Source: Pseudomonadota bacterium (GTDB lineage: Bacteria; Pseudomonadota; Gammaproteobacteria; Steroidobacterales; Steroidobacteraceae). From it: a stretch of DNA of 64,000 nucleotides. The first letter of the stretch is position 1; the number at the start of each line of letters is the position of its first letter. Below the pieces are notes generated by a model, which was given only the letters and a program-made list of their open reading frames with translations, had not been told where the DNA came from and made no database searches. Of the stretch, positions 24,757 through 40,043 are shown piece by piece. Made by a program: the position numbers and the translations under genes. The stretch lies in NCBI GenBank assembly GCA_025357635.1, contig JANXOV010000004.1, positions 1-64,000 on the forward strand. Reading direction: 5' to 3'.

Positions 24757-24766
24757 GGAGACCCCT

Positions 24767-25564
24767 TCACGGAACATATCCGCAGTGAATGCAGCGCCGC
24801 GTCGACGAATGCATGAGCTTGGCGCACGCGACACGGCGCAGTCCGCGCCGATACCACGCGGCAGCGAATTGCATGCCCAGCAGCGGAGCGGTCAGGTAAA
24901 TCCAGAAGTGCGTCCAGATGCCGCCCGGCAGCGCCGATGCGAACGAACGCGCAGGATTCATGCTCATGCCCGACAGCGGCGCTTCGAAAGTGATGTACAG
25001 CGCCACCAGCGCACCGGCCCAGAGCCCGGTGAATCTGGCATGGCGGGGAGAATTGGAAACCCGCAGCACCACCGCCATGAGCAGCGCCGAAATCGCAAAC
25101 TCCGCGGCGAATGCAATGCCAACGCCGGCTGCGCCCGGCACCGTGGCAATGTAACTGACCGGCGGTGACGTAAATGCTTCGTTGAACCATGCCGTCACGA
25201 TCAGCACGCCGCAGACACCGCCGGCGAATTGCGCGAGGCAATAAAACACCGCATCCCATCCGCTCACCTTCCCCAGACGCCAGAAGGTCAGCGTCACCGA
25301 TGGATTCATATGCGCACCGGAGCGCTGACCCCAGGGGGAATAGATCAACGCGATGGCCGTCAACCCCATGGCAACGCCGATCAGCGCGCGACGCACACCG
25401 CCATCCGCAATGAGCCTGTGCAGCGGTGAGTCCGGATGCTCCAGCAGCGTGGAGAAGACGCCGGCCGAGATCATGAACATGCCCAATGCCCAGGCCTCGA
25501 TGAGATACTCCGGCCAATGAGCCCGCAATGCGGCGCGCATCCCGCTGCCACCCTGCTCGCTCAT
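24767..25564 (-). CDS. MIP-family aquaporin
   Basis: The 265-residue membrane protein has six predicted helices and the two pore half-loops: HMNPSVT (a variant NPS of the usual NPA) near residue 85 and MNPARS near 200. The NPARSF context is that of water-selective aquaporins (AqpZ-like) more than GlpF, but I would not exclude transport of small polyols. The gene overlaps by ATGA the end of the SDR gene upstream. In a sugar-oxidation operon it might serve osmotic balance (inference). Confidence 0.85.
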   Translation of the reverse strand: MSEQGGSGMRAALRAHWPEYLIEAWALGMFMISAGVFSTLLEHPDSPLHRLIADGGVRRALIGVAMGLTAIALIYSPWGQRSGAHMNPSVTLTFWRLGKVSGWDAVFYCLAQFAGGVCGVLIVTAWFNEAFTSPPVSYIATVPGAAGVGIAFAAEFAISALLMAVVLRVSNSPRHARFTGLWAGALVALYITFEAPLSGMSMNPARSFASALPGGIWTHFWIYLTAPLLGMQFAAAWYRRGLRRVACAKLMHSSTRRCIHCGYVP

Positions 25565-26421
25565 CCCCCGGTCTCGAAGCCAGGATACAAGGTCATGCCG
25601 CCGTCGACGAACAGACTGATGCCGTGAACGTAGTCAGCGTAATCCGATGCGAGCCACACCGCCGCACGGCCGATCTCATCCGCCTCGCCGATGCGCTTGT
25701 ACGGAATCAGCTTCAACAGTTCACGGTACGCCTCGGGTGTGCCCCAGGCTTCCATGTTGATGGGGGTGCGGATCGCGCCGGGGCAGATGCTGTTGACGCG
25801 GATGCGATACGGCGCAACTTCCTGCGCCAGGCTTTTCATCATCAGCATGACACCGCCCTTGGAGGCGGCGTAGTTGACGTGGCCCGCCCACGGAATCACC
25901 TCGTGAACCGAGCTGATGCACAAAATTTTGCCGGCGGAGCAGGACACCTCGGGCGTCACGCCGCGGCGCTTAAATTCCCGCACCGCTTCGCGCGCGCACA
26001 GGAATTGCCCGGTCAGGTTGATGCCGATGACCTTGTTCCACTGCGCCAGCGTCAAATCCTCGAACGCCGCGTCCTGCTGCAGCCCGGCGTTGTTCACCAG
26101 CACATCGACCGTGCCGAACTGGCGGATCATGCGCGCGAACATTTCCCGGACCTGCCCTTCGTCAGACACATCGGCGCGCACGGCCATGGCACGCACCCCG
26201 CAGCGGCGGATCTCCTCGCATACCTGTTCGGCCTTGTCTTCGCCTGCGACATAGTTGACGACCACGTCGGCGCCGGCCTGGCCAAGCGCCAGCGCGATCG
26301 CGCGGCCGATGCCTGAACTGGCGCCGGTGACGATGGCCTTCTGCCCCAGCAGCAGCTGCTGCGGCGGCACCTGCGGCATGACAGGCCGGGGCAGGTGCGC
26401 GGGATGCATTGAATTCTCCAT
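25561..26421 (-). CDS. Short-chain dehydrogenase/reductase, glucose-1-dehydrogenase-like
   Basis: The 286-residue SDR carries the cofactor motif VTGASSGIGRAIAL near residue 32, NNAG near 110, the catalytic ISS and Tyr-Lys in INYAASKGG-type context (VNYAASKGG near 180), and CPGAIRTP. It resembles bacterial glucose 1-dehydrogenases, which turn glucose to gluconolactone with NAD(P). That function fits the neighbouring lactonase and glucosidases, but SDR substrates are hard to call. ATG 26421 is 6 bases after AAGGA; an in-frame ATG at 26427 overlaps the glucosidase stop codon. Confidence 0.8.
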   Translation of the reverse strand: MENSMHPAHLPRPVMPQVPPQQLLLGQKAIVTGASSGIGRAIALALGQAGADVVVNYVAGEDKAEQVCEEIRRCGVRAMAVRADVSDEGQVREMFARMIRQFGTVDVLVNNAGLQQDAAFEDLTLAQWNKVIGINLTGQFLCAREAVREFKRRGVTPEVSCSAGKILCISSVHEVIPWAGHVNYAASKGGVMLMMKSLAQEVAPYRIRVNSICPGAIRTPINMEAWGTPEAYRELLKLIPYKRIGEADEIGRAAVWLASDYADYVHGISLFVDGGMTLYPGFETGG

Positions 26422-26423
26422 GA

Positions 26424-29102
26424 TCATTCCTTGTTGTGTTGACGAGGCTGGAGAAGCTTGGCCACGAGGCCGGTCCAGCCGGTTTGATGCGAAGCGCCGA
26501 CACCGCGGCCGGTGTCGCCGTGAAAGTACTCGTAGAACAGCACGTGGTCGCGGAAATGCGGATCGTCCTGCAGCCGCGGATGCTGTCCGAACACCGGACG
26601 GCGGCCGTTCTCGTCTTTCAGGAAGATCCGTGTCAGACGCCGTGCGATTTCAGCGGCGGCCGCATCGATGGATACCAGGTTGCCGGAGCCTGTGGGACAC
26701 TCGATGCGAAAGTCATCTCCGTAGTAGTGATGAAACTTCTGCAGCGATTCGATCAGCAGATAGTTGACGGGAAACCAGATCGGCCCGCGCCAGTTGGAGT
26801 TGCCGCCGAACAATCCTGAGTCCGACTCCGCCGGAAGATAGCGCACCGACAGGTCGCTGCCATCGACGTTGAACACATACGGGTTGTGCTCATGATGCTT
26901 GGAGATCGCGCGAATGCCGAACTCGGAAAGGAACTCGGTTTCGTCCAGCATGCGCGCCAGCAGCCGCTTCATGCGATGGCCCCGCAGCAGCGAAAGCAAT
27001 CGCCGATGACCGCGGCCCTCCTCATTCCAATGCGACACGAGCGCGGCGAGATCCGGACGGTACTTCAAGAACCACTCCAGCCGGCGCTTGAATTCCGGCA
27101 CCTTGTCCAGCAGTTCCGGCTCCAGCGTCTCCACCGCGAACAGCGGGATCAACCCGACCATGGAGCGCACCTTCAGCGGAATCATGCCGCCGTCGGGCAG
27201 GTGCAGCACGTCGTAGAAGAATTTATCCTGCTCGTCCCACAGACCGATGCCGGCCTCGCCCAGGTTGTTCATGGCTTCGGCGATCTGCAGAAAGTGTTCG
27301 AGAAACTTGGTGGCGATGTCCTCGTAGACATGGTTGTGCTGCGCCAGCTCGAGCGCGATGCGCATGAGATTCAGCGCATACATCGCCATCCAGCTGGTGC
27401 CGTCGGCCTGATCGATGTGGCCGCCGGTGGGCAGCTGCGCGCTGCGGTCAAAGACTCCGATGTTGTCCAGGCCGAGAAAACCGCCTTGAAACACATTCCG
27501 GCCCTCGGCGTCCTTGCGGTTCACCCACCAGGTGAAATTCAGCATCAGCTTGTGGAACACCGACTCCAGGAACACCAGGTCACCGGCGCCGCCGCGTTGT
27601 TTGCGGTCCATCTGAAACACCCGCCACGTGGCCCAGGCGTGCACCGGCGGGTTCACATCGCCGAAGGCCCATTCATAGGCAGGCATCTGCCCATTGGGGT
27701 GCATGTACCATTCACGCGTCAGCAGCAGCAGCTGCTCCTTGGCGAATTCAGAATCCACGATCGCCAGCGACAGCGTATGAAAGGCCAGGTCCCAGGCGGC
27801 ATACCACGGATATTCCCACTTGTCGGGCATTGAAATGACATCGGCATTGTTCAGATGCATCCACTCGCGGTTGCGCCCATGGCGACGCTGCGCCGGCGGC
27901 GGCAATTGCGCGGGGTCGCCCTTGATCCACTCCGGAATGTCGAAATAGAAGAATTGCTTGCTCCAGATCATGCCGGCGAACGCCTGGCGCTGGACCAGCC
28001 GTGCATCCGCATCGGCGATATCGCATTGGATATCGGCATAGAATGCGTCGGCTTCCTGCAGCCGTTGCGCGAACAGTGCATCGAATGAATCAAACGGTTT
28101 GGATTGCGGCATCTTGCTCAGCCGCAGTTTGAAGCTGACCTCACCGCCGGCAGGAACATCCACCGCGAAGCGCGCCGCGGCCTTCGTACCACGCTGCAGC
28201 GGATTCACCGCGTGCTCTTGAGCATGGATCACGTAGTCGTGGAAGGCGTCCTTGAAGTGGCCCTCGGCCGGGGCGCCGTACAGCCGCCTGGTATTGGTTT
28301 CATTGTCGGTGAACAGCCATTGCGGCACACCGTCCGCATAGGCGTGAAACTCACCCAGTTCCGGGTGCTCGAGCAGCACGTGACCATCGCTCAATTGCAT
28401 CAGCGGTCTGGGCTGATCGTGCTTCCAGCTCCAGGTATTGCGAAAACTCAATTGCGGCAACACCTGCAACGCGGCAGCCTCGGGGCCGCGATTGTGCACG
28501 GTGATGCGCATGAGAATGTCCTCGGGCTGGGCTTGCGCGTATTCGACGAACACGTCGAAGTAGCGGTTGTCCTCGAACGCACCGGCATCGAGCAGTTCGT
28601 ACTCTGGCTGCTGGATGCCGCGGCGCCGGTTCTCGTGCACCAGATCCGCATACGGATACTCCCGCTGCGGATACTTGTAGAGCATCTTCAGATAAGAATG
28701 CGCAGGCGTCGCATCCAGATAGTAGTAAAGCTCCTTGACGTCCTCGCCATGATTGCCCTCGCTGTTGGTCAGGCCGAAGAGCCGCTCCTTGAGGATGGGA
28801 TCGCGGCCGTTCCACAGCGCGACCGACAGGCACAGCCGCTGCTGCGTATCCGAAAACCCCATCAGGCCGTCCTCGCCCCAGCGATACGCGCGGCTGCGAG
28901 CGTGATCGTGCGGGAAGTAATCCCAGGCATTGCCGTGCGGACTGTAGTCCTCGCGCACCGTCCCCCACTGACGCTCGCTGAGGTAGGGACCCCACAGCTT
29001 CCAGGCAGGCGCCTTCGCCGTGCACTGCGCGAGACGCGCTCGTTCCTTGGCCACGGGCTTACTGCTTCTGCGCGCCGTTGCCGGCTTCAAGTTCGCATTC
29101 AT
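26424..29102 (-). CDS. GH63/MGH1-type glycoside hydrolase
   Basis: The 892-residue protein has an N-terminal beta-sandwich (WGPYLSERQWGTVREDYS near residue 37; GLMGFSDTQQRLCLSVALWN) and a C-terminal (alpha/alpha) barrel with YPWYAAWDLAFHTL, WAFGDVNPPVHAWATW and NWRGPIWFPVNYL, the hallmark segments of the GH63-like glucosidase group. The barrel Asp in AAWD is the likely general acid. It probably removes alpha-glucosyl units from an oligosaccharide or glucosylated small molecule in the cytoplasm, as no signal peptide is seen. ATG 29102 follows GGAG. It overlaps the debranching-enzyme gene by 44 bases. Confidence 0.85.
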   Translation of the reverse strand: MNANLKPATARRSSKPVAKERARLAQCTAKAPAWKLWGPYLSERQWGTVREDYSPHGNAWDYFPHDHARSRAYRWGEDGLMGFSDTQQRLCLSVALWNGRDPILKERLFGLTNSEGNHGEDVKELYYYLDATPAHSYLKMLYKYPQREYPYADLVHENRRRGIQQPEYELLDAGAFEDNRYFDVFVEYAQAQPEDILMRITVHNRGPEAAALQVLPQLSFRNTWSWKHDQPRPLMQLSDGHVLLEHPELGEFHAYADGVPQWLFTDNETNTRRLYGAPAEGHFKDAFHDYVIHAQEHAVNPLQRGTKAAARFAVDVPAGGEVSFKLRLSKMPQSKPFDSFDALFAQRLQEADAFYADIQCDIADADARLVQRQAFAGMIWSKQFFYFDIPEWIKGDPAQLPPPAQRRHGRNREWMHLNNADVISMPDKWEYPWYAAWDLAFHTLSLAIVDSEFAKEQLLLLTREWYMHPNGQMPAYEWAFGDVNPPVHAWATWRVFQMDRKQRGGAGDLVFLESVFHKLMLNFTWWVNRKDAEGRNVFQGGFLGLDNIGVFDRSAQLPTGGHIDQADGTSWMAMYALNLMRIALELAQHNHVYEDIATKFLEHFLQIAEAMNNLGEAGIGLWDEQDKFFYDVLHLPDGGMIPLKVRSMVGLIPLFAVETLEPELLDKVPEFKRRLEWFLKYRPDLAALVSHWNEEGRGHRRLLSLLRGHRMKRLLARMLDETEFLSEFGIRAISKHHEHNPYVFNVDGSDLSVRYLPAESDSGLFGGNSNWRGPIWFPVNYLLIESLQKFHHYYGDDFRIECPTGSGNLVSIDAAAAEIARRLTRIFLKDENGRRPVFGQHPRLQDDPHFRDHVLFYEYFHGDTGRGVGASHQTGWTGLVAKLLQPRQHNKE

Positions 29103-31053
29103 TGATATCACTCCAAGCTCTCAAGATTTCCGCCACACCCCAGGCCTGCGCGAAACAGCCGCGCGGCGCGAAGGGCGCTTCTGCATCGAAGATTTCGCTG
29201 ATCTGCCCCACGCACCCGCCGCGCAAATGCGCGGCCATTCCCGACAGGCGCGCCCGCGCCTGATCGGCATTGCCGTAGGCGCGCAGATGCGCCGTGGCGA
29301 ACGGACCGAGCAGCCAGCTCCATACCGTGCCCTGGTGATAGGCGCCGTCGCGCTCCCATGGACCGCCGTGATAGCCGGGGACGTAGCGCGGATCGGCCGG
29401 CGACAGGCTGCGCATGCCTACCGGCGTCCATAGCTGCGACGAACAGACATCGACAACGCTGCGCGCGCGCTCGATATCGAGCAGCGTGTAACGCAGACTG
29501 ACCGCAAACAACTGGTTGGGGCGCAGACTGGCGTCCGCACCGTCGGGCCCGTCGACGACGTCGTAGAGATGGCCGCCCGCATCAAACCAGAATCGGTCGT
29601 TGAAACTGCGCCGGATGCGCGCCGCCTGTGCGGCGTAGTCGGCCGCGGCCGGCGCATCCTGCTGCTGTTCGGCAAGGCGCGACATGATCATCCAGGCGTT
29701 GAACCACAGCGCATTGATCTCCACGCACTTGCCGATGCGCGGCGTCACCACCCACTCACCCACCTTGGCATCCATCCAGGTCAGCTGCACTCCGGGCTGA
29801 CCTGCGAACAGCAGTCCGTCGCCGGCATCGGCCTTGATGCCATAACGCGTGCCGCGCACATGGGCCTGGAGAATGATCTGCAGCACCGGATACAGCTCGG
29901 CGCGCAGCTGCGCATCGCCGGTCTTGCGCAGATACTCATCGATGGCAACGAAGAACCACAGCGTCGCGTCGACGGTGTTGTACTCCGGCGCATCGCCGGC
30001 ATCCGGGAACCGGTTCGGCAGCATGCCTTCACTGACGAAGCGGGCAAAAGTACGCAGGATGCTGGCCGCAATGTCATGGCGCCCGGTGGCCAATGTGAGC
30101 CCAGGCAGGGCGATCATGGTGTCGCGACCCCAATCGCTGAACCAGGGATAGCCGGCGATGATGGTTTGTCCCAGCAGGTTGCCAGCCGCGTCGCGGCGTT
30201 CCACGATGAACTGATCCGCGGCGAGGTGCAGCTGACCGATCCACTGCGGCGCGGGCGCCGTCGGCAGCAGGCGTCGCTGTCGCAGACGCTCCTGCTGCAG
30301 GGCGCGAGCCGAGTCTGACGGTGGCCCCGCTTCGGCCGTCATCACCACCGCCGTGCTGTCGCCCGGATTCAATTCCAGGCGCAGAAGAGCGGGGCTGAAC
30401 AAATCCTCGACATCATCCAGGCCGCGTTCGGACTCCACCCGGTGTTTGAAATTCCAATGCCACTGCGGACTCAAGGAGCAGTCGCCGGATTCCTGCATCA
30501 GCCGGTAAGGCCGCGCGCCCGGATACGCAATGATCTGAACGCCGTGATCCACGGACTGAACATCCATGTCGTACAGCCCGCGATGATGGGCGTGATAGTC
30601 ACGATAGGCGCACAGCGGCTGCGCGTGAATGACGAGCGGCGCGCCGGCGCGCATCAAGGTGAATGCCACATAGGTGGTGTTGAGGCCGTGTGCCATCCAG
30701 ATGCGTTGTTCGAGCAGGGCATCGCCGATGACCCAGGTCCACACCGGGATCGATCCGTCCAGACGGAATGAATCCAGATGGCAGAAGCCGTGCGGATCGA
30801 TGGTGCCGTCGGCGTACTCATTCGTGGCAAGCCGCGTCGACACACCGGCATAGCGCACAACGAGATCGAGCTTCGACACCATCACGGTGCGCTCGACCGG
30901 CGGCCGCAGCGAGGCGACAAGCAGGCCGTGATAACGGCGCGTGTTGACCAGACCGACCGTTCCGGATGCGAAGCCGCCGATGCCATTCGTCACCAGCCAT
31001 TCGCGCTGCCGCACTTCTTCGAAGCTGCCCAGAGAATCCCGCCCGATCATCAT
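29059..31053 (-). CDS. Amylo-alpha-1,6-glucosidase-type debranching enzyme
   Basis: The 664-residue protein has the GDE N-terminal domain (EWLVTNGIGGFASGTVGLV near residue 18; RRYHGLLVASL) and a C-terminal barrel with FSDWGRDTMIALPGLTL near 350 and EYNTVDATLWFF near 405. This fits prokaryotic debranching enzymes (GH133-type) that hydrolyse alpha-1,6 branch glucose. Start is the first of two ATGs at 31053, with GGAG upstream, overlapping the lactonase stop by ATGA. With the GH63 enzyme it would free glucose from glycogen-like or other alpha-glucans. Confidence 0.88.
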   Translation of the reverse strand: MMIGRDSLGSFEEVRQREWLVTNGIGGFASGTVGLVNTRRYHGLLVASLRPPVERTVMVSKLDLVVRYAGVSTRLATNEYADGTIDPHGFCHLDSFRLDGSIPVWTWVIGDALLEQRIWMAHGLNTTYVAFTLMRAGAPLVIHAQPLCAYRDYHAHHRGLYDMDVQSVDHGVQIIAYPGARPYRLMQESGDCSLSPQWHWNFKHRVESERGLDDVEDLFSPALLRLELNPGDSTAVVMTAEAGPPSDSARALQQERLRQRRLLPTAPAPQWIGQLHLAADQFIVERRDAAGNLLGQTIIAGYPWFSDWGRDTMIALPGLTLATGRHDIAASILRTFARFVSEGMLPNRFPDAGDAPEYNTVDATLWFFVAIDEYLRKTGDAQLRAELYPVLQIILQAHVRGTRYGIKADAGDGLLFAGQPGVQLTWMDAKVGEWVVTPRIGKCVEINALWFNAWMIMSRLAEQQQDAPAAADYAAQAARIRRSFNDRFWFDAGGHLYDVVDGPDGADASLRPNQLFAVSLRYTLLDIERARSVVDVCSSQLWTPVGMRSLSPADPRYVPGYHGGPWERDGAYHQGTVWSWLLGPFATAHLRAYGNADQARARLSGMAAHLRGGCVGQISEIFDAEAPFAPRGCFAQAWGVAEILRAWSDINECELEAGNGAQKQ

Positions 31054-32666
31054 GGCCGCACTCCGGCCTGCAGCAGCTCGATCCGATAGAGCCGGTCGTG
31101 CGCGCACAGATACAGCGAGCGCGCATCAGCCCCGCCCCAGGCGAAATTGTGCACGGTGCGTGGCGCCACGATGGTTCCCAGATGTGTGCCCGCCGGCGAG
31201 TAAATGCGCACGCCGTCCGGAGCAGCCACATACACGTTGCCACGCAAGTCCACCTTGATGCCATCGAGCGCCGCCTCCCCGGGCAGCTCCGAGGTCATAT
31301 CGGCAAACACCTCGCTCTTGCCCAGTGTGCCGTCGCGCTGTACCGGAAATCGAAGCACGACCTTGCGCTTTGCATCCCAGTCATCCACGTACAGGTGACG
31401 CTCATCGGGGGAAAAGGCGATGCCATTCGGTCCGGTCAGTTCATCGCTCAGCAGCGTCACCCGGCCGTCCTTGGCCCGGTACACACCGCTGAAGCCGAGC
31501 TCCTTGCGCGGATCGTCGAAGAATCGCGGCAGCCCGAAAGGCGGATCGGTGAAATACACCGCGCCGTCGGATTTGTAGACCAGATCGTTCGGACTATTCA
31601 GCCGCTTGCCGCGGAAGCGATCCGCAAGCACTCGCAGCTCGCCGTTGGGTTCGAGGCGGACGACCCGGCGGTTGCCGTGCTGATTGATGGTGAGCCGATG
31701 ACGCGGGTCCAGCGTCAATCCGTTCGAGCCGGGCTGTCCGTACTCGCCGATATCATCGCCCTCATAACCGCTTTTTTCCCGATACACCGACAGCGCCGCA
31801 GCGGCCGGATCATAGGAATAGATTCGGTTGGCATTCGGATCGCTGAACAGCAAGCGCTGCTGCTCGGCAATCCAGACTGGTCCTTCGGTGAATTGGAACC
31901 CTTCGGCCAGCTTGAATATTTTCGGGTTGGACGGAACGATGTCATCGAGCGCAGGGTCCAGCCGCAGCACCTGCACGTTGACTTCCTGCGGTGGCACTGC
32001 GGCCGGCAACGCATCTGCGGCTGTAGCTGGGTAGAAGTTCAGGCGCGCGTGCCGCATCCAGATGAAATTCGCCGGCGGATCCGACAGCGGACCGTTGATG
32101 CCGAACACGGCCAGCTGAATTTTCTGCCCCGGCTTCACATCACGGCCCACGATCAGGCGGTTCAGCGCATTCCACCCCTGGATCACCGATCCGCCGCTTT
32201 GCGCCGCGGCACGCGGCAATTCGCCATTCACCCACACTTCGGCGTAGTCATCGACGGAGGTTTCGAATTCGATGCTTGACCCGCGTGGATCGAATTCCCC
32301 GACGCGCTGCGGGACGGTGATCGAGATCCGGTACCACGCAAAGCTGATGCGGCCATTGCCGCGGCGCTGAGTCAGCGATGCAGCATCCAGACGCTGCCAT
32401 GCGGAGTCGTCGAACTCGCGCGCCCCGGCGCGCGGCCGGATGTCCCAGGTCGCCACCGGCGCCCCGGTCGGCTGGCCGGAGGCGTCGGGCCTCCGGTGAG
32501 TGACGTTGACCAGGTCCACATCGGCGTAGCGCCACACTCCCTGCACCAGCGTGGCGCCGGCAGGCGTCATCAGATCGATGCTGGCCGCCGGCGAACGCTC
32601 GGTCGCTTGCGCCAGCGGCATGCCGATCAGCGCCATCAGCGCCCACAAAGTCCTCTTGTATCCCAT
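31050..32666 (-). CDS. SMP-30/gluconolactonase-like protein with N-terminal sugar-binding domain
   Basis: The 538-residue protein has a signal peptide (residues 1-22). A galactose-binding-like beta-sandwich follows at about 40-210 (DDSAWQRLDAASL; YAEVWVNGELP), then a six-bladed SMP-30/LRE propeller from about 230 (EGFQFTEGPVWIAEQQRLLFSD; LNSPNDLVYKSDGAVYFTDPPFG; GPNGIAFSPDERHLYVDDW). The propeller has the metal-binding Glu, Asn and Asp residues of gluconolactonases, which open sugar lactones in the periplasm. The added sugar-binding domain is unusual and may target a glycan. ATG 32666 has GGAG upstream. Confidence 0.85.
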   Translation of the reverse strand: MGYKRTLWALMALIGMPLAQATERSPAASIDLMTPAGATLVQGVWRYADVDLVNVTHRRPDASGQPTGAPVATWDIRPRAGAREFDDSAWQRLDAASLTQRRGNGRISFAWYRISITVPQRVGEFDPRGSSIEFETSVDDYAEVWVNGELPRAAAQSGGSVIQGWNALNRLIVGRDVKPGQKIQLAVFGINGPLSDPPANFIWMRHARLNFYPATAADALPAAVPPQEVNVQVLRLDPALDDIVPSNPKIFKLAEGFQFTEGPVWIAEQQRLLFSDPNANRIYSYDPAAAALSVYREKSGYEGDDIGEYGQPGSNGLTLDPRHRLTINQHGNRRVVRLEPNGELRVLADRFRGKRLNSPNDLVYKSDGAVYFTDPPFGLPRFFDDPRKELGFSGVYRAKDGRVTLLSDELTGPNGIAFSPDERHLYVDDWDAKRKVVLRFPVQRDGTLGKSEVFADMTSELPGEAALDGIKVDLRGNVYVAAPDGVRIYSPAGTHLGTIVAPRTVHNFAWGGADARSLYLCAHDRLYRIELLQAGVRP

Positions 32667-32701
32667 GATCGGTGCTCCGTTTACTCGCCGCAGTGCGCGC
32701 C

Positions 32702-33577
32702 TCAAGGCGCCGTTGATTTCACGACGTAGTATTCAAAAGGGGCGCTCACTTGCTTGAACCAGTGCGGCACGCCGCGCGGAATGCTCACGACATCCCCTTT
32801 GGCCAACTGCATCGTTTCCCCGCCTTGAATCTGCGCGCCGCGCACTTCGCTTGCGGAGAGGTTGCGCGGCGTGATGAGCTCGCCCCCGACAATTAGTTGC
32901 GCCGATCCTGCGAGCACATAGAAGATGTCTGTGTCACGCAAATGGACCTCGGCCTCGCCCGCTGCGTCGCGGCGGCTGGCGTTGACCTGGAACGCCGGGT
33001 CGCTGATCAGGTTGGCATCCTCGCGAAACGCCTTTGCAACCCGCGCCCCGCTCAGGTGCTGCACGCGCGCACTCAGCTCGGCCTGCCGCTGTTGGAATGC
33101 GGCCGCGGCATTGCTGGCGATCTCATCGTCCTGCGCGGCGCTGGCCGCGCCGCTGACGCCGACGGCGCCGATGATCTGGCCGGCGACTTCGACGGGAACT
33201 CCGCCCATCAGCGGCGTGAATGGCGCCACCTCGGGCACTGCCAGCATGGCGTAGCGGCCCTTGTTGACGGCGTCTTCGAACACACGGGTCGGTTTGCCGA
33301 ACAACACCGCGGTGCGCGCCTTGCCGATGGAAATCGACGACGCGTTTTGAAATGTGCCATCGAGCCGTTCCAGATACAGCAGTACCCCGCCGGCATCGAC
33401 GACTGCGACCGCCGCACCGGGCGCTGAATGCTCGCGCGCATAGGCCAGAGCCTGCGCGGCAATGGCCTTGGCGCCCTCGGCGCTCAGCGTGGAACGCGAG
33501 AGAATTTCCGCAGGTGGAGCGGCTGAGGCTGCGCCATTGGCCAATAGAAGGATCAGCGACAGTGCGCAAGTCTTCAT
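32702..33577 (-). CDS. Secreted GlcG/HbpS-domain protein fused to a cupin
   Basis: The 291-residue protein has a signal peptide ending ANGAASA. Residues 30-165 are a GlcG/HbpS (heme-degradation-like) domain: AKAIAAQALAYAREH, AVAVVDAGGVLLYLERLDG, FTPLMGGVPVEVAGQIIGA. A cupin follows at about 205-290 (EVHLRDTDIFYVLAGSAQL; GDVVSIPRGVPHWF). GlcG domains bind heme or corrinoid-like ligands or act in glycolate and propanediol loci; the fusion's role is unknown. It overlaps the nucleotidyltransferase stop by ATGA and precedes the lactonase by 35 bases. Confidence 0.8.
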   Translation of the reverse strand: MKTCALSLILLLANGAASAAPPAEILSRSTLSAEGAKAIAAQALAYAREHSAPGAAVAVVDAGGVLLYLERLDGTFQNASSISIGKARTAVLFGKPTRVFEDAVNKGRYAMLAVPEVAPFTPLMGGVPVEVAGQIIGAVGVSGAASAAQDDEIASNAAAAFQQRQAELSARVQHLSGARVAKAFREDANLISDPAFQVNASRRDAAGEAEVHLRDTDIFYVLAGSAQLIVGGELITPRNLSASEVRGAQIQGGETMQLAKGDVVSIPRGVPHWFKQVSAPFEYYVVKSTAP

Positions 33578-34575
33578 GCCATGACTCCCTGCGAGGCTCC
33601 GCTGCGCGCCACCGACAACCGCCAATGCTGGGCGGCCAGACTCAGACCCGTTCCAGGACCTTCCCAATCATCACCCAGGTTGGGCGGGGTCGGCATTGCC
33701 TGTAGCGTCGCCGCCACCCGCTGCGGCGTTCCAAGATCGGTCCAGCCGCATTCCGGTACGCGCAGGACCCGCAAATTTTGTGTTCGCCCTTCGAGCACGT
33801 GGCGCGAGAAGTCCAGCGTCTCAAGTGCTCGATACAGCTCGGTGGTCGCGAGCGGACGCCTCGTCCGTTCTCGATCCACGCGCACGGCTTCGCGCATCCG
33901 ATTCAGCGTATCGCCGATCCGCTCTTGATACAGCGCCAGAAAGGCGCGGACCGATGCGGCAATGATGAATGCATTCCACAACGCGCCGCCGCGAAGCAGC
34001 GCACGCGCGCTCGAAGGCGCTGGCTTTTCGATGAACTGCAGCACCGCAGGCACTTCTTCGCCCGCCAGTTCCTGCGGCAGGATGTACCCCAGTTCGGTGT
34101 CGGGCGCGTCAGGTTCGATCCCCAGCAGAATCATCGTATTTGGATCCGCGGCCGCGAGGCCGGCGGCGCGGCGCAGAGACCCGGCCAGCACCGCCTCGTC
34201 GCGGACGTGATGATCGGCCGGCAACAGAACCACCGTGGCATGCGGATCGCGCGCGGCAATGTGCAGCAGCGGCAGGAGAATTCCATGCGCGGTGCCGCGA
34301 TTCTCAGGCTGCACGATGACATTGTGCTCGGGCAGGGCATCGAGGGCGCCCGCCCACCAGGTACCATGCTGAGCGGCCACGATGCTGCAGATGCGCTCAG
34401 GCCGCGCGACCGCGCGCGCGCGCTGCAATGCTTCTTGCAGCAGAGAAGAGCCGCCGCGCAGCGAGCAGAATTGCTTCGGGACCGCCACGCCGCAGGCCGT
34501 CGTGGTCAATCCCCTGAGCCGGCTGCCCTCGCCCGCCGCCAGGACCAAGGCCCAAATGTTCGTGTCGTTATTCAC
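33574..34575 (-). CDS. Mannose-1-phosphate guanylyltransferase-like nucleotidyltransferase
   Basis: The 333-residue protein starts with the nucleotidyltransferase loop ALVLAAGEGSRLRGLT near residue 9, and has PKQFCSL, the hallmark QPENRGTAHGIL near 88, VVLLPADHHV near 113 and FIEKPAP near 180. This is the pattern of GDP-mannose pyrophosphorylases, which make GDP-mannose from mannose-1-phosphate and GTP. It lacks the C-terminal isomerase domain of bifunctional enzymes. It starts with GTG 34575, preceded by AGGGGGT, 71 bases after the orphan bufferin gene. Confidence 0.82.
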   Translation of the reverse strand: MNNDTNIWALVLAAGEGSRLRGLTTTACGVAVPKQFCSLRGGSSLLQEALQRARAVARPERICSIVAAQHGTWWAGALDALPEHNVIVQPENRGTAHGILLPLLHIAARDPHATVVLLPADHHVRDEAVLAGSLRRAAGLAAADPNTMILLGIEPDAPDTELGYILPQELAGEEVPAVLQFIEKPAPSSARALLRGGALWNAFIIAASVRAFLALYQERIGDTLNRMREAVRVDRERTRRPLATTELYRALETLDFSRHVLEGRTQNLRVLRVPECGWTDLGTPQRVAATLQAMPTPPNLGDDWEGPGTGLSLAAQHWRLSVARSGASQGVMA

Positions 34576-34590
34576 TGTCTACCCCCTGGG

Positions 34591-34618
34591 CCGGATGGCG
34601 GCAAATGCCGCCATCCGG
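34591..34618 (-). repeat. Strong hairpin between orphan bufferin and nucleotidyltransferase genes
   Basis: CCGGATGGCGGC and GCCGCCATCCGG form a perfect 12-bp stem with a 4-base loop, 28 bases after the bufferin stop. On the transcribed minus strand no U-run follows, so it is more likely a transcript-stabilising or processing hairpin than an intrinsic terminator. It would let the bufferin message accumulate above the downstream sugar genes. Confidence 0.7.
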
Positions 34619-34646
34619 TGTGCCGATGAGAAAATAGCCGCCGGCA

Positions 34647-34940
34647 TTACTGCTTCTGCGGCGTCGGATCTTTGACCTTCACCAGATGCGCGCCTGCGAT
34701 GCGATCGCAGGTGCCCTTGGGAAGGTAAATCCAAGCCATTGCATTGGCATCCGTCGTCACATGCCCGTGGCAGGCATTGGTCGCGGTGGCGCAATCGTTC
34801 TTGCCCGCCTTGATCACGCCGGCGCATTGCTCCTCGCCCGCATGCTCATCGGCCGCAAGCGCCGAGACTGCGAATGAGACGGCGCCGAGCGCCAGCACGC
34901 TGGTCATTGCCGTTCGAATCAGATTCTTGGATGAATACAT
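34647..34940 (-). CDS. Stand-alone bufferin (DUF2282/BufA1 family)
   Basis: The 97-residue precursor has a signal peptide (residues 1-30, ending VSALAA) and then the DUF2282 pattern with four cysteines: EQCAGVIKAGKNDCA, ATNACHGH and LPKGTCDRIAG. Bufferins are periplasmic ribosomal peptides whose cysteines are modified by BufB/BufC and which sequester copper. This gene has no bufB/bufC of its own; the modifying genes lie 3-5 kb upstream. It ends with an extra KVKDPTPQKQ tail. ATG 34940 follows GGAG by 8 bases. A sigma-54 promoter lies at 34979-34995. Confidence 0.85.
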   Translation of the reverse strand: MYSSKNLIRTAMTSVLALGAVSFAVSALAADEHAGEEQCAGVIKAGKNDCATATNACHGHVTTDANAMAWIYLPKGTCDRIAGAHLVKVKDPTPQKQ

Positions 34941-34978
34941 GTCAATCACTCCGTTGGTTTGTTGGACCCAGGGGATAA

Positions 34979-34995
34979 AGCAACCGCCGTGCCAA
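34979..34995 (-). promoter_or_regulatory. Sigma-54 (-24/-12) promoter of the orphan bufferin gene
   Basis: On the minus strand the sequence is TTGGCACGGCGGTTGCT, matching the RpoN consensus TGGCACG-N4-TTGC with the exact GG-N10-GC spacing. Transcription would start near 34968, giving a leader of about 28 bases with the GGAG site intact. It differs at one position from the promoter of the buf operon at 39938-39954. Confidence 0.88.
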
Positions 34996-35038: not shown

Positions 35039-35146
35039 GTTCTCATCGCGCATGCGGCGGCCCCGACCAGGTCAGGCTCGCGAGCCGCTCCGCTACTGCC
35101 CGCCGCGGCGCCATCACGTGTGGTGGGGAGGTTGAGGCCTGCGCCG

Positions 35147-35407
35147 CTATCTGGCCGAGGAGGCGAGCAAGCCCGCGATGAGCCCAGGCACGTTGCCAAG
35201 CTCAACGCCATCCTGCTGCAGCGCGCGCAGCAATTGCAGACCGGATTCGTCGGCAAACTGAAGTTGCGCGAGATTCAGCCGTACCAAACCCTGTTGGCGA
35301 GCCTCACTCACGTTCGTGCGCACTTCGGCGAGCCACGGCTGCAGCAGCTTGCCTTCGAGGTGAATGGTGGTCAGCGGAAGAGCGGCCGCATGGGTGATTC
35401 GAAGCAT
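35147..35407 (-). CDS. Small STAS-domain protein
   Basis: The 86-residue protein reads as one STAS domain: MLRITHAAALPLTTIHLEGK, then VRLNLAQLQFADESGLQLL with a Ser (residue about 59) at the position phosphorylated in anti-anti-sigma factors, and a final ELGNVPGLIAGLL. Similar short STAS proteins are common single genes of unknown role. It lies between the sigma-54 activator gene (77 bases upstream) and the orphan bufferin promoter. Start ATG 35407 has a poor ribosome-binding site; an in-frame start at 35488 is possible. Confidence 0.65.
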   Translation of the reverse strand: MLRITHAAALPLTTIHLEGKLLQPWLAEVRTNVSEARQQGLVRLNLAQLQFADESGLQLLRALQQDGVELGNVPGLIAGLLASSAR

Positions 35408-35484: not shown

Positions 35485-37431
35485 TCACTCCGCGCCGCGG
35501 GCGATCCCCAGTTTCTTCATCCGATGGCGCAGCGTACCCGGTTTTAAGCCCAGACGACTCGCTGCGCCACGCTGGCCTTCGATGACCCAGTTGGTGTCGC
35601 GCAGCATGGCCACGATGTGTCCGCGCTGCACGGCATTCAAATCGCCGCCGCCGGCGTTCTCGCCGTCCGGCGCGCCGGCATGCACTTGAGTACCATGCGC
35701 GGACGGCACGAGGTCCGTCAACGAGGTTGCCAGCCCGATGCCCAACACGTCGGCATCGAATTCCAGCACCGAGCCGCTCGACAGAATCAACGCCCGCTCG
35801 ATGATGTTTTCGAGTTCACGGATATTGCCCGGCCAGGCGTACTGCAGCAGCCGCTGCATGGTTTGTGCATCGATGCACTCGATGCGCCGGCCGATACGGC
35901 CGGCATACTTCTGCACGAAGAACTGCACCAACAGCGCGATGTCCTCCCGTCGCTCTCGCAGGGGCGGCAGATGGACCGGGAACACGTTGAGCCGGTAGAA
36001 GAGGTCGGCGCGGAAGGCGCCATCGCGAATCGATTTTTGCAGGTCGCGATTGGTGGCCGCGATGATGCGCACGTCGGTGCGGATGGTCTGATTGCTGCCT
36101 ATGCGCTCGAATTCGTGCTCTTGCAGCACCCGCAGCAGCTTCACCTGCACGTCCATCGGCACCTCACCGATCTCATCCAGAAAGATCGTGCCCGTATTCG
36201 CAAGCTCGAAGCGGCCGATGCGGCGCTGGATGGCGCCGCTGAAGGCGCCGCGTTCATGCCCGAAAAGTTCGCTCTCCACCAGCGAAGTGGGCAACGCCGC
36301 GCAATTTATCTTGATGAAGGGCTTGTCGGCCCGGCTGCCGCCCGAATGAATCGCGCGTGCAATCAGTTCCTTGCCGGTGCCGGACTCGCCTGTGATCAGC
36401 ACGGAAGCGTCGGTCGGCGCGACCCGTTTGACCTTGTCCAGCACCTTGAGGAGGCCTGCGCTGGCGCCAATGATCTCTTCAAAATTGTGTACCGACTTGA
36501 TCTCTTCCTGCAAATAGACGTTTTGCGCCTGCAGCTTCTCCTGCTCCTGCTCCATCAGAACGCGCTGGGTGATGTCCACAAACATGGTGCGCGTATAGGT
36601 GCCGCCCGGATCGGGCTTGGACCACCACTGGACCCAGATCGGTTTGCCGTTGTCCTTGCGTCGCAGCTCCAGAATCACGCCGCTGGTGTCGGTGCCCTTG
36701 CCGACAGATTCGAACGCTTCGCGCAGCCGCCGTTTCGCCTCCGGCGTATCGGGCACCAACGTGGCGCCGCGCAATTCCCTCACCTCTTCCTCGCTGATGC
36801 CAAGGATCCGTCGCGCTGCGTGGTTGGCGCGGATGAAATGCGTGTCCAGCCCTTCGTGCACGTACGCGATGGGCGCTTCGTCGAACAGGTCGCGCAAGCG
36901 CAATTCGTTGTCGCGGATCTGCTGATCCATGCGGATACGCTCCAGCTCGGCCGTGGCACGCGCTGCGAATATCCGGAACAACGCCAGACGGCGCGGGTCA
37001 TTGGGCAGCGGCGCTTCATCGAACACGGCAAGATGCCCCATGACCTCGCCCGCGCGCGTCTTGAGCGGGACGCCGAGATAGCTGTCCATGCCATCGTGCC
37101 CGGTCGGAAAACTGGCGGGAAGACCGGTTGGATAAAAGCAAAAGCCGCCCTCGATCACGTCCTGGCAGGGTGTGCCGCGCAGATCGAATTGATAATTCGG
37201 AATGATCCCGCCGTTGGACCAATAGGCGATGGTGCGGATTTGGTGAGGTGAGATGAACTCAGTGACGAAGGCATGGCGCGCGCCAACGACCTGCGCCAGA
37301 TACTGGACCAGCGTTCGAAAATATTCATCGCCCGTGGAACTCGCCGTGCCCTCAACGACGATCTGCAGGGCGCGCGTATCCTGCGCGCTGAGCGCGGGAG
37401 AGTCCAAATCCTGCGGTGCTTTGCCTGTCAT
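35485..37431 (-). CDS. Sigma-54-dependent transcriptional activator (GAF-PAS-AAA+-Fis HTH)
   Basis: The 648-residue protein has a GAF domain (about residues 20-165, [20 protein letters not shown]), a PAS domain (about 175-300, [30 protein letters not shown]), a short coiled coil, an AAA+ domain (Walker [13 protein letters not shown]-type [15 protein letters not shown], Walker [22 protein letters not shown]) and a C-terminal Fis-type helix-turn-helix ([19 protein letters not shown]). The sigma-54-contacting loop is GAFSGA instead of GAFTGA. The AAA+ part is FhlA-like. Sitting between two sigma-54-promoted bufferin genes, it is their probable activator (inference). Confidence 0.9.
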
Positions 37432-37475: not shown

Positions 37476-37934
37476 CTAGCGGCGTGGAATTCCGAGCAAC
37501 CGATCCAGCGACCAGGATCCATTGCCGAATACTGCCAGCAATGCCAGCATGAATCCCCACAACACATGCTGCGCCAATGCCGCCTCGAAGCCTTCGGCCA
37601 GCAGCACCTGCGAATACGACACGACTGCCATGAGGTTCACGGCGAACAGCCCGAGCGGACCGATGCGTCCGCCGATGCCCAGCACGAGCAGCACGGGAAA
37701 GAACAGTTCCCCGAATGCACCGGTAACGGCGGCAGCCACCGGCGGCAGCAGCGGCACATGATACTCATCGCGAAACAATGCCAGTGTGCTGTCCCAACTG
37801 GCGACCTTGATCCATCCGGATTTGAGGAACTGCCAGCTGACATACCAGCGGGTCAGCAGCAAGAACAAGGGCTGCAGGGGATCGAGCAGCCGCTCGAGCA
37901 GGACCAGGGTGCGGTTGATCAGGTTTGTATTCAT
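37476..37934 (-). CDS. DoxX-family membrane protein of the bufferin operon
   Basis: The 152-residue protein has about four membrane helices with DoxX motifs: LLTRWYVSWQFLKSGWIK (residues 27-44), PVAAAVTGAFGELFFPVLLVLG and LLAVFGNGSWSLDRL. DoxX proteins are regular partners in bufferin operons, with a proposed redox or quinone-linked role. ATG 37934 overlaps the bufC stop by ATGA. The activator gene begins 44 bases further on. Confidence 0.88.
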   Translation of the reverse strand: MNTNLINRTLVLLERLLDPLQPLFLLLTRWYVSWQFLKSGWIKVASWDSTLALFRDEYHVPLLPPVAAAVTGAFGELFFPVLLVLGIGGRIGPLGLFAVNLMAVVSYSQVLLAEGFEAALAQHVLWGFMLALLAVFGNGSWSLDRLLGIPRR

Positions 37935-38719
37935 GAGATTGCCTCGGCAATGTGGATGGCGGCGACGCATTGCGCCGCCAATAGATGATTCAAGCTCTGG
38001 GTCAGATCAAAGTCAGGGAAGGCGGCGACAATGGCCGCAACCGCCTCGCCCAGCTGCGCGCCATTCGAAATCTGCCGCAGCAGTGCAGCCGTGAGCGGCG
38101 GCCATTCGCGCAATTCGACATGATCGTCACGGCGAATCAGCAACACGGCCTGACCGCCCTGGTCCAATCGAATCGGCTGCACATCGTCACCGGCGCCGGG
38201 CTGATTCGCCTTCCAGATCGTCAACAGCGGAAACTCCGATTGCACCAGACGCAGATCTGGCCGCAGTTCGAACACGATGCGCTCATGATCCTGCGGGTCG
38301 ATGGCCCGCAGGTCGGCAGGATCGAACGGCGCGCCGGGCGCCGCCGTTAGCACTTCCTGGTAGGCCCACTCCAGCCGCGCGACATCCTCGAAGTACGCAT
38401 GCGGTGTCGCCGCCAGCTCGGCGCGCAGATGCTGGGCGTAGCGTTCGCCGACAAACTGCAGATCGCCCGATTGCGAGGGAAAGAGGCGCTGATACCCGCG
38501 CACCGATTGAGCAAACCAGTCCTCCCCGCTCAGCCGCTGAATCACCGGAAAACTGGCCTGCATGGTGGCGAGGAATCCTGCGCGCGTGTTGTTGCGATAG
38601 ATTTGCAGTCGCTGTGCGGGGGCGATGCCCGCATCGACCACCCACTGCTGCATGCGCCCGGGGTCGCCGGACAGGATGCCGGCGCAGAATTCACGCTGCA
38701 GATCACGCAGCGATGTCAT
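37931..38719 (-). CDS. bufC: BufC: DUF2063 bufferin-biosynthesis partner protein
   Basis: The 262-residue protein has the DUF2063 N-terminal signature QREFCAGILSGDP, LQIYRNNTRAGFLATMQASFPVIQRL (about residues 36-61) and YFEDVARLEWAYQEV near 118. DUF2063 proteins pair with DUF692 enzymes and are thought to recognise the precursor peptide and help position it, as MbnC does for MbnB. ATG 38719 lies 17 bases inside the end of bufB, so translation is coupled. The C-terminal half is less conserved. Confidence 0.9.
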   Translation of the reverse strand: MTSLRDLQREFCAGILSGDPGRMQQWVVDAGIAPAQRLQIYRNNTRAGFLATMQASFPVIQRLSGEDWFAQSVRGYQRLFPSQSGDLQFVGERYAQHLRAELAATPHAYFEDVARLEWAYQEVLTAAPGAPFDPADLRAIDPQDHERIVFELRPDLRLVQSEFPLLTIWKANQPGAGDDVQPIRLDQGGQAVLLIRRDDHVELREWPPLTAALLRQISNGAQLGEAVAAIVAAFPDFDLTQSLNHLLAAQCVAAIHIAEAIS

Positions 38720-39578
38720 GGGAGCGCTCCAGGAATCCATCGGCCTTGTCCGCTTCGGCGGCAAGCACCGCGAGTGCGGGAATGTCGGTGTCCCATTCGA
38801 TCAGCGTGGGCCGCGGGCCGTAGCAGCGCAGCGCGAAATCGAACAGCGACCACACCTCCTCGCACACCGGCGTGGAATGCGTGTCGATGAGGATCTCGCG
38901 CCCGTCATGGCGGTTGACGCTGTGGCCGGCCAGATGCAGTTCCTGCACATGGCGAGCAGGAATCGCACGCAGGAACTCCCGCGCATCGAAACCGTGATTG
39001 TGCGCGCTCACATACACGTTGTTGACGTCCACCAGCAGGCCGCAGCCGGATGCCGCAGCCAGCGCCGCGAGAAACTCCCACTCCGGCATCTGCTGGAAAT
39101 TGAAGCGCAGGTAGCTGGAAATGTTCTCGATCAGAATCTGACGGCGCAGACGATCCTGCAGTTCGCCGACTCTCGCGATCATGTGCCGCAACGCCTCTTC
39201 GGTGTAGGGTAGCGGCAGCAGGTCGTTTAGAAACGTGCCGTCGATCGACGACCAGGACAGGTGCTCCGACACCACGCTCGGTTCGCTCCACGCGATCAGA
39301 CGTTCCAGCTTGCGCAGGTGCTGTGCATTCGGCGGATCGGTGGAACCGAGCGACAGTCCCACGCCATGCAGGCTCAGCGGATACAGCGAGCGGATCTTTT
39401 CCAGGAATTGGATCTGCGCGCCGCCGTCGGCAAAATAGTTTTCACTGTGCGCTTCGAGCCAGCCCACCGCAGGCCTTTCACTCAGAATGGCCTGATGATG
39501 AACGGCCCGCAGACCGATTCCGGCCCGCGCCGGAATCGAGTCTGCGGCAGGCGCCGCGGTGGGCAGCCTCGCGCTCAT
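38703..39578 (-). CDS. bufB: BufB: DUF692 multinuclear iron enzyme modifying bufferin
   Basis: The 291-residue protein is a DUF692 (MbnB/TglH-like) TIM barrel. The expected iron ligands are seen along the chain: His in LSLHGVGLSLG, Glu-His in VVSEHLSW, Glu-Asn in LIENISSYLRF, Asp-Asn in LVDVNNVYVSAHNHGFD, His in LHLAGHS, Asp-His in IDTHSTPV and Glu-Asp in LIEWDTDIP. The family uses iron and oxygen to convert precursor cysteines to oxazolone or thiooxazole groups. The start ATG overlaps the bufA stop as TAATG, so precursor and enzyme are translated together. Confidence 0.93.
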   Translation of the reverse strand: MSARLPTAAPAADSIPARAGIGLRAVHHQAILSERPAVGWLEAHSENYFADGGAQIQFLEKIRSLYPLSLHGVGLSLGSTDPPNAQHLRKLERLIAWSEPSVVSEHLSWSSIDGTFLNDLLPLPYTEEALRHMIARVGELQDRLRRQILIENISSYLRFNFQQMPEWEFLAALAAASGCGLLVDVNNVYVSAHNHGFDAREFLRAIPARHVQELHLAGHSVNRHDGREILIDTHSTPVCEEVWSLFDFALRCYGPRPTLIEWDTDIPALAVLAAEADKADGFLERSHDIAA

Positions 39579-39832
39579 TACTTGGACTTGAGCGAGCCGC
39601 CGACCAGACGTTCACAGGTGCCCTTGGGAACCGAAATGAATTCCTTCGGGTTGGCATCGGTCTTGGACTGACCTGCACAGGCATGCGCCGCACCGGCGCA
39701 ATCGTTCTTGGCGGCCTTGGCGACGCCGTAGCATTTCTCGGATTTGGCATCGTCCGCCGCAAACGCCGTGCTGCTGATCATGCCCAAAGCGAGGGCGCCG
39801 CCGATGGCGGCGGAAAGGAAAGCGGTTTTCAT
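39578..39832 (-). CDS. bufA1: Bufferin precursor (DUF2282/BufA1 family)
   Basis: The 84-residue precursor has a signal peptide (residues 1-25, MKTAFLSAAIGGALALGM then STAFAA) and a mature part with four Cys: EKCYGVAKAAKNDCA, AHACAGQSK and VPKGTCERLVGG. Bufferins bind copper in the periplasm after BufB/BufC modification. Two adjacent ATGs exist; 39832 sits 7 bases after AGGAG and is preferred to 39835. It heads the operon bufA-bufB-bufC-doxX and lies under a sigma-54 promoter. It shares about half its mature residues with the second bufferin at 34647-34940. Confidence 0.92.
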   Translation of the reverse strand: MKTAFLSAAIGGALALGMISSTAFAADDAKSEKCYGVAKAAKNDCAGAAHACAGQSKTDANPKEFISVPKGTCERLVGGSLKSK

Positions 39833-39937
39833 CATGAAACTCCTAAAATGAATGGGACCTGCAAGGGACCGTGATTGGGTGACTTTAATTTCGCTTGAAT
39901 GGCGGCGCGCCTCGTGGCGCACCCCGCCGGATAGAAA

Positions 39938-40000: not shown

Positions 40001-40022
40001 AGGCCGCCACCGGTGGCGGCCT
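40001..40022 (-). repeat. Perfect 22-bp GC-rich palindrome after the MBL-fold gene
   Basis: The two 11-base arms (AGGCCGCCACC and its complement) are perfect. The palindrome starts 21 bases after the stop of the metallo-hydrolase gene and would fold into a strong RNA hairpin. There is no following U-run, so it may be a transcript-end hairpin separating that gene from the buf promoter, or a protein-binding site. Confidence 0.55.
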
Positions 40023-40043
40023 TGGCCGCGACCGGCGGCGGGG

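Follow-up and report, generated by a model that had tools for sequence, protein, structure and literature searches.

A second Buf1 bufferin precursor gene heading a sugar-oxidation operon in a predicted sigma-54 regulon

Bufferins are widespread, and in the open-licence literature, as far as its texts were available, sigma-70-family (ECF) factors are the only regulators described for them. In Sinorhizobium, RpoE7 exerts ECF control over a DUF692/DUF2063 unit (PMC6180224, available part). Bufferin chemistry, and a related cluster that is not induced by copper, are covered in the available parts of PMC12668002 and PMC12538549. The accessible text of PMC12452194 on Buf1 clusters reports stand-alone and tandem precursors, as well as sizeable proportions of precursors that do not lie beside MNIO genes, and proposes that such non-adjacent precursors are modified by MNIOs encoded elsewhere, or are unmodified. 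In the MsrPQ stress circuits, including that of Brucella ECF16/NrsF, envelope methionine repair is switched on by copper or hypochlorite, according to the accessible portions of PMC9302797 and PMC8315932; in E. coli, reactive chlorine induces MsrPQ, and copper does so through CusSR (PMC9302797).

The locus described here lies in a 64-kb stretch of DNA, referred to below as the window. Caulobacter sigma-F is also said to exert ECF control over bufferin-type genes. The window would share with RpoE7 and sigma-F, as far as these are described in the texts available, control by an alternative sigma factor, but theirs are sigma-70-family ECF factors whereas here sigma-54 and an enhancer-binding protein are predicted. 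The same precursor family with four Cys, the MNIO with its DUF2063 partner and DoxX are all found in the Buf1 clusters of PMC12452194; unlike those clusters, which in the accessible text have sigma-70-family factors with NrsF, the window carries a sigma-54 activator and sigma-54 promoters, and an extra precursor heads a sugar operon. It differs from the E. coli and Brucella MsrPQ circuits in that msrPQ occurs only in the clusters of relatives, beside the sigma-54 activator.

No report of sigma-54 control of bufferins was found among the open-licence papers listed, judged by titles and the start of abstracts, and the combinations of DUF692 with an enhancer-binding protein and of DUF2282 with sigma-54 gave nothing there either. 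Orphan bufferins and modification in trans have already been proposed in print (PMC12452194, available part). The reading preferred here, with a probability of about 0.66, is that the orphan gene of the window is a second Buf1 precursor gene that was added as the first gene of a sugar-oxidation operon, within a sigma-54 regulon.

Buf1 precursor genes and their sigma-54 promoters

The orphan gene and the main buf operon are arranged as follows (some start codons in the buf operon were set by reading).

34647..34940, minus strand: orphan Buf1 (DUF2282) bufferin precursor, 97 aa, four Cys, ATG at 34940 (Pfam match)
37476..37934, minus strand: doxX of the buf operon (Pfam; start codon chosen by reading)
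37931..38764, minus strand: bufC, DUF2063 partner protein (Pfam)
38703..39578, minus strand: bufB, MNIO maturase (Pfam; above the NCBIfam MNIO_BufB cut-off)
39578..39835, minus strand: bufA1, Buf1 precursor of the main operon (Pfam)
34979..34994, minus strand: sigma-54 promoter P2, TGGCACGGCGGTTGCT, a perfect match whose inner end is 39 bp from the orphan start codon
39938..39953, minus strand: sigma-54 promoter P1 of bufA1, TGGCACGGCGCTTGCT, a perfect match about 100 bp before the bufA1 start codon

A preliminary description of this DNA had claimed a four-cysteine DUF2282 precursor at 34647-34940 with its own sigma-54 promoter, without bufB and bufC of its own and downstream of a full buf operon on the same strand. 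All of this was borne out. The open reading frame is present and its product matches the PF10048 DUF2282 profile with 70.2 bits against a cut-off of 22.4 (E 1.4e-19, Pfam); all four Buf1-family Cys columns are kept in it in an alignment of 38 DUF2282 proteins. By eye, its N-terminus resembles a Sec signal peptide reaching to ...SALA-ADE, with the four Cys after it. No MNIO or DUF2063 gene adjoins the orphan, and directly 3' of it, in place of bufB and bufC, lie genes for a nucleotidyltransferase and an HbpS-like protein. The bufABC-doxX genes are on the minus strand with the orphan 2.5 kb downstream, and a site with no mismatch stands before it at 34979-34994 (minus strand). A stand-alone precursor like this one is of a type that the Buf1 family also contains. 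The label "orphan" is fair for the gene, but it hides its apparent wiring into the regulon of the main operon. The name bufA2 was avoided because NCBIfam and the literature use it for the Buf2 family, whose NCBIfam model (Buf2/BufA2, NF050166) the orphan misses with 28.1 bits against a cut-off of 60.

In a tree of BufA proteins, bufA1 groups with Propionivibrio bufA1 at 0.92, and the orphan groups with Methylomagnum at 0.51 only. Matches to the orphan were present in 194 plasmid records, all below 60% identity, the best four plasmid-borne relatives being 44-49% identical.

The -24/-12 consensus of sigma-54 promoters is TGGCACR-N4-TTGCW. When up to two mismatches are allowed, the window contains no more matches to this pattern than chance would give (21 found, 25.8 expected). 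Perfect sites are rarer: two in the window, each before a bufA, and nine in the 4.29-Mb genome, against two perfect genomic matches for a backwards control pattern. P1 and P2 have in common an extended form of the site that occurs nowhere else in the genome, which has one rpoN (Sigma54_DBD match, E 2.1e-65). Of the 38 DUF2282 genes compared, four have a site with no more than two mismatches in front of them (window bufA1, the orphan, Propionivibrio bufA1 and Methylomagnum bufA), all of them linked to the activator described below; the other 34 have none. This control held 32 genes from relatives, two from the window, the one on contig C162 of the same genome, two from Propionivibrio and one from Methylomagnum; the genes were distinct and measured from the first conserved Cys. 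Of the 46 DUF2282 matches in the search of 118 genomes, the window genome included, some were without a locus, and identical proteins, fragments below 50 aa and frames without a start had been left out. No sigma-70-like promoter was found on the minus strand of 33000-40500 by a consensus scan, a weak test in a GC-rich genome; the 16 window proteins that were scanned with Pfam, all from the 22-40 kb part, include neither an ECF sigma factor nor NrsF, and no match to an Rfam family emerged.

The genome's third DUF2282 gene, that on C162 (L062:8104-8256; G000:C162:23106-23255, minus strand), was considered as a regulon member and rejected, its best sigma-54 match having five mismatches and its upstream-site score being weak. 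Within the 16-kb stretch around it there was no bufB or bufC match. A lipobox-like ALDGC near the N-terminus of its product suggests, by reading, a possible lipoprotein.

The activator, its proposed upstream sites and related loci

Two genes are placed between the two bufferin operons.

35485..37431, minus strand: sigma-54 activator (enhancer-binding protein), GAF-PAS-AAA+ with a Fis-like end (Pfam; start codon chosen by reading)
35147..35407, minus strand: small STAS-like gene (STAS_2 below the Pfam cut-off; start codon chosen by reading)

The activator is proposed, from its sequence and position, to regulate both operons. Like FhlA/NorR-like enhancer-binding proteins, it has a sensor domain, an AAA+ core and a Fis-like DNA-binding end, although HTH_8, at 18.6 bits, stays below the cut-off of 22 (it is above it in three compared orthologues). 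Unlike them, it aligns only by the AAA+ and C-terminal part in the 25 NCBIfam matches listed; since every curated cut-off is missed among these, it is none of the named FhlA/NorR-like regulators.

In a scan of genome contigs for the activator, the best 80 of 182 loci were compared, 16 of these 80 being shorter than 8 kb. DUF2282 or bufB matches occurred in only one of the best 80, that of Propionivibrio (L104); in a run over 90 loci, the second positive was the Buf2 cluster of the window genome itself. The Propionivibrio locus is the best one and has a perfect sigma-54 site, bufA1, bufB, bufC, doxX, the activator (69% identical) and the STAS-like gene (56%). After the latter come a second perfect sigma-54 site and then GH63 (81%), SDR (87%), MIP, GMC and VOC genes, the products of the locus being 51-87% identical to those of the window. 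No bufferin lies between this second promoter and GH63, so the place of the orphan is known from one genome only. Since the second Propionivibrio promoter precedes the same GH63-SDR-MIP-GMC-VOC genes without a bufferin, this regulon most likely includes the sugar operon, to whose head the orphan would have been added. Co-regulation of the bufferin and sugar-oxidation operons may thus be called well supported at the level of sequence, chiefly from Propionivibrio. A second DUF2282 gene of Propionivibrio was rejected as a regulon member; it is part of another bufABC-doxX cluster, which has no such promoter.

On the Methylomagnum ishizawai plasmid pRS11DPr2 (L189), an activator orthologue (57%) is divergent from bufA-bufB-bufC-doxX-msrQ, and a sigma-54-like site that has two mismatches but keeps GG and GC stands before bufA. 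This operon (L189:5546-10809) ends with msrQ, and msrP was not annotated in the 20-kb stretch. In a Methylococcaceae bin (L105:720-6192), the orthologue (57%) is divergent from lactonase-msrP-msrQ-FMN reductase genes, with a perfect site and tandem upstream sites, and a search of that genome for DUF2282 gave no match. The same holds for G300, a genome of the window's order, in which a 48% relative with a different N-terminus is divergent from two lactonase genes. More distant relatives (43-45%) in G536 and G648 are followed by a sigma-54-like site and an SDR gene whose product is 57% identical to that of the window. One further relative (L106; 58.5% over 487 aligned residues) is on a contig of 3.5 kb that carries neither buf nor msr genes. 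The genes, the promoter and upstream-site sequences and the order of both operons, kept in one other genome, are directly seen, as is the linkage of activator and bufferin in two other genomes, that one included.

Another contig (L099:7637-9588, G047:C13) carries a doxX that is 65% identical to the window's and is immediately followed by a gene for a GAF-type relative of the sigma-54 activator (33-49% by parts). It lies apart from the bufABC genes of G047.

Upstream palindromes are expected of enhancer-binding activators. The palindrome CCRCCA-N4-TGGYGG, first noticed by eye in these same promoters, the window among them, precedes all six promoters of the window, Propionivibrio, Methylomagnum and Methylococcaceae-bin clusters, 66-132 bp before the -24 end. 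The window sites are as follows.

35111..35126, minus strand: candidate upstream activator site for P2, CCACCACACGTGATGG, at a distance of 132 bp from the -24 end, ranked 3rd or 4th among 63,985 positions
40004..40041, minus strand: proposed tandem upstream activator sites of P1, from matrix ranks
40004-40019, minus strand: P1 upstream site CCGCCACCGGTGGCGG, rank 2 or 1 of 63,985
40026-40041, minus strand: P1 upstream site CCGCCGCCGGTCGCGG, rank 17 or 22 of 63,985

The best palindromes have 0 and 1 mismatches at P1 and P2 of the window, 2 and 1 at P1 and P2 of Propionivibrio, 0 in Methylomagnum and 1 in the Methylococcaceae bin; the promoters of G536, G648 and G300 have only forms with three mismatches. 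Seven of the nine promoters show a tandem appearance (spacing 16-22 bp), with one clear site in window P2 and in G300. In random 300-bp pieces, matches with at most one mismatch arise at rates of 1.8% (window), 2.4% (Propionivibrio, L104), 4.3% (Methylomagnum, L189) and 7.2% (Methylococcaceae bin, L105). If two mismatches are allowed, 9-18% of such pieces from these loci contain a chance match, so single upstream sites prove little.

To guard against circularity, a matrix was trained on sites outside the window, either twelve or a set of eight. Among the 63,985 window positions, the P1 site ranked 2nd and the P2 site 3rd with the twelve-site matrix, and 1st and 4th with the eight-site matrix. 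Of the nine perfect sigma-54 sites in the genome, only P1 and P2 have an upstream site within 300 bp (scores 12.0 and 11.6), and the other seven reach 3.8 at most. Rank 1 of the twelve-site matrix is 45925 (45925-45940), just before a cbb3-oxidase-like gene, with no sigma-54 site nearby. A tandem motif-like pair at 45222-45258 was rejected as a promoter; it is inside a hemN-like reading frame and also has no sigma-54 site nearby. Both matches are probably due to chance.

It is proposed that the activator binds these palindromes upstream of both operons and, with sigma-54 RNA polymerase, would turn on bufA1-bufB-bufC-doxX and the orphan operon under the same conditions.

At E <= 1e-140, and with at most three candidates scored per genome, the activator was found in 3 of 369 genomes of the class (its own and two others), in 1 of 395 genomes of the Propionivibrio family (that of Propionivibrio itself) and in 1 of 398 in the phylum (its own). 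Its N-terminal half exceeded 200 bits in the window genome and G300 only, among 396 genomes of the order. Plasmid records contained three relatives at E <= 1e-100, one of them full-length. This rarity, together with the occurrence on plasmids, suggests a patchy horizontal spread.

Two Cys of the GAF domain, nine residues apart (alignment columns 119 and 128), are common to the window, Propionivibrio, Methylomagnum and Methylococcaceae-bin activators. In G536, G648 and G300 the first is kept and the second is shifted or lost, and the L106 relative is without the region. A putative role of this pair as a redox or metal switch is an attractive idea. The structure model of the sensor is good for the GAF part only; a PDB fold search with this part gave phytochrome-type GAF matches among the best 50, with no ligand hint, and the sensor has no PDB sequence match.

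These features could point to an undescribed family of two-Cys-GAF sigma-54 activators, governing a patchy, horizontally moving envelope-stress regulon whose individual members recruit new cargo, such as the orphan bufferin, behind a shared promoter; this broader view is tentative and falls somewhat short of an even chance.

The signal of the regulon may be copper and/or an oxidant. That the main signal is an envelope oxidant such as reactive chlorine, not copper, with bufferins, DoxX, MsrP/MsrQ, lactonases and glucose oxidation all answering damage, is a possible reading of lower probability still. It would account for the adjacency of orthologues to lactonase-msrP-msrQ-FMN reductase in the Methylococcaceae bin and to bufABC-doxX-msrQ in Methylomagnum, and it fits the GAF Cys pair common to these two, Propionivibrio and the window; E. 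coli MsrPQ answers both reactive chlorine and copper (PMC9302797, available part), but the generic result of the GAF fold search tells against it. With a sigma-54 activator and a candidate site before bufferin, MsrPQ and glucose-oxidation genes, the purpose of bufferins (metal, or metal and oxidant) becomes testable.

Likely modification of the orphan precursor

In the preferred reading of the orphan as a second Buf1 precursor gene of the regulon, its product would be made while BufB and BufC are abundant and would most likely be converted in trans, with thiooxazoles formed on its two central Cys. The peptide would then reach the periplasm through Sec and bind copper, or a metal like it, there.

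Two MNIO genes occur in the genome, and the second also passes the MNIO_BufB cut-off. This one belongs to a Buf2 cluster (L100:935-4625, G000:C64) together with a BufA2-family precursor with six Cys (91.3 bits against the NF050166 cut-off of 60) and a DUF2063 partner. A gene for an MsbA-related ABC transporter follows that cluster. Because the second MNIO sits with its own precursor and partner, the Buf1-type BufB and BufC of the window are the likelier modifiers of the orphan. The Cys surroundings of the orphan diverge from those of bufA1 (CHGH against CAGQ at the third Cys, EEQC against SEKC), so recognition by BufB and BufC is not assured. Additional copper ligands could come from the His beside the third Cys (CHGH) and from that of DEH, close to where the mature peptide probably begins.

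It is therefore conceivable, though rather unlikely, that the orphan is unmodified by these two proteins, being a plain Cys/His metal-binding peptide or one handled by the other MNIO. The lack of an adjacent maturase, the divergent Cys surroundings with the added His and the very existence of a second MNIO above the MNIO_BufB cut-off are all consistent with such a peptide, and the accessible text of PMC12452194 leaves unmodified orphans possible; but that MNIO has a Buf2 cluster of its own, all four Buf1 Cys are kept in the orphan, and its promoter type is common with the Buf1 cluster. With one activator, two promoters, two precursors and one BufB/BufC pair, the window is a compact system for a test of modification in trans.

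A search for paired bufferins in relatives, put forward in the preliminary description, did not return the arrangement of the window. Forty of 118 genomes, with the window genome counted, had DUF2282, and 5 of these 40 carry at least two such genes, the close pairs being laid out differently. Pairs about 5 kb apart (G014, G033 and G050) were rejected as the same arrangement, with a divergent second MNIO/partner pair between their members; these stretches gave no activator match and no perfect sigma-54 site. At three loci of one genus (L043, L044 and L045), two Buf1 precursors are about 5 kb apart, one of them is followed by doxX only, and a second MNIO/partner pair, divergent in orientation, lies between the two.

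The sugar-oxidation operon and the hairpin after the orphan

The genes that follow the orphan encode a nucleotidyltransferase and sugar enzymes, just as the preliminary description had stated (Pfam and NCBIfam scans).

34591..34618, minus strand: 12-bp perfect hairpin with a 4-nt loop and no T-run, 28 bp after the orphan and before the nucleotidyltransferase gene
33574..34575, minus strand: nucleotidyltransferase, resembling mannose-1-phosphate guanylyltransferase (Pfam; below the NCBIfam cut-off)
32702..33667, minus strand: HbpS-like plus cupin protein (Pfam)
31050..32705, minus strand: SMP-30/gluconolactonase-like beta-propeller protein (Pfam)
29059..31107, minus strand: glycogen debranching enzyme / amylo-alpha-1,6-glucosidase (Pfam)
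26424..29111, minus strand: GH63/MGH1-like glucosidase (Pfam; locus comparison with Propionivibrio)
25561..26427, minus strand: SDR, glucose-1-dehydrogenase-like (Pfam, NCBIfam; locus comparison with Propionivibrio)
24767..25564, minus strand: MIP aquaporin/glycerol facilitator (Pfam; locus comparison)
23284..24834, minus strand: GMC oxidoreductase (Pfam; locus comparison)
22274..23689, minus strand: double glyoxalase/VOC protein, proposed last gene of the operon (Pfam; locus comparison)

A 71-bp gap follows the orphan; beyond it, beginning with the nucleotidyltransferase gene, neighbouring genes overlap or are almost contiguous. The predicted order is orphan bufA-NTase-HbpS/cupin-SGL-GDE-GH63-SDR-MIP-GMC-VOC, with presumed read-through past the hairpin. 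The VOC gene is proposed as the end because the next open reading frame read as a gene, 20145-22301, is on the plus strand. This frame, which converges on the end of the sugar operon, appears by reading to encode DoxX-like membrane segments fused to an NDH-2-type NADH dehydrogenase.

The preliminary description had also suggested that copper defence and sugar oxidation are co-expressed, and had set against this a separate promoter and full termination before the nucleotidyltransferase gene. The co-expression is supported by a like regulator, upstream site and sigma-54 promoter at both operons, here and in Propionivibrio; "copper defence" is carried over from the protein family. No sigma-70-like promoter turned up in the scan of 33000-40500, and a strong hairpin, without a T-run, is present. 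In a 101-nt fold the hairpin has a z-score of -2.94, and none of 200 shuffles was as stable. It was rejected as a repeated element, being unique in the genome at up to three mismatches.

Because this strong hairpin stands in the gap, partial or full termination after the orphan is possible. A monocistronic orphan, with an independent sugar operon and the bufferins alone co-regulated, is nevertheless an unlikely arrangement. The strength and uniqueness of the hairpin are in keeping with it, and some stand-alone precursor genes form single-gene units in the available text of PMC12452194; however, the hairpin has no T-run after it, the minus strand yielded no sigma-70-like promoter in the consensus scan, and the equivalent Propionivibrio promoter is directly before the sugar operon. 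The hairpin is taken to stabilise or attenuate the transcript and not to terminate it fully; it would probably stabilise a short bufA message or pass part of the transcription, giving bufferin in excess over the sugar enzymes. That the promoter and site matches are mere chance in a GC-rich genome and the orphan a decaying duplicate is highly improbable: loose sigma-54-like matches are indeed as common as chance and the upstream matrix also scores promoterless places (45925, rank 1 with the full training set, and the 45222 pair), but of only nine perfect sites in 4.29 Mb two stand before the two bufA genes, both upstream sites are picked out by a matrix trained on other genomes, and the same arrangement occurs in other lineages.

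In the tentative broader view of a two-Cys-GAF activator family, such a regulon would couple metal-binding thiooxazole peptides and methionine-sulfoxide repair to an alpha-glucoside-to-gluconate pathway supplying reducing power.

The sugar genes are usually found elsewhere: GH63 relatives occur in 54 plasmid records, activator relatives at E <= 1e-100 in three. Contexts were viewed in three of these 54. A Gemmatirosa plasmid with GH63 has no other gene of the query set. MIP, SDR, gluconolactonase and GH63 genes are together on a Nostoc plasmid, and GDE-GH63 genes on a Caballeronia plasmid; therefore, the sugar cassette exists independently of bufferins.
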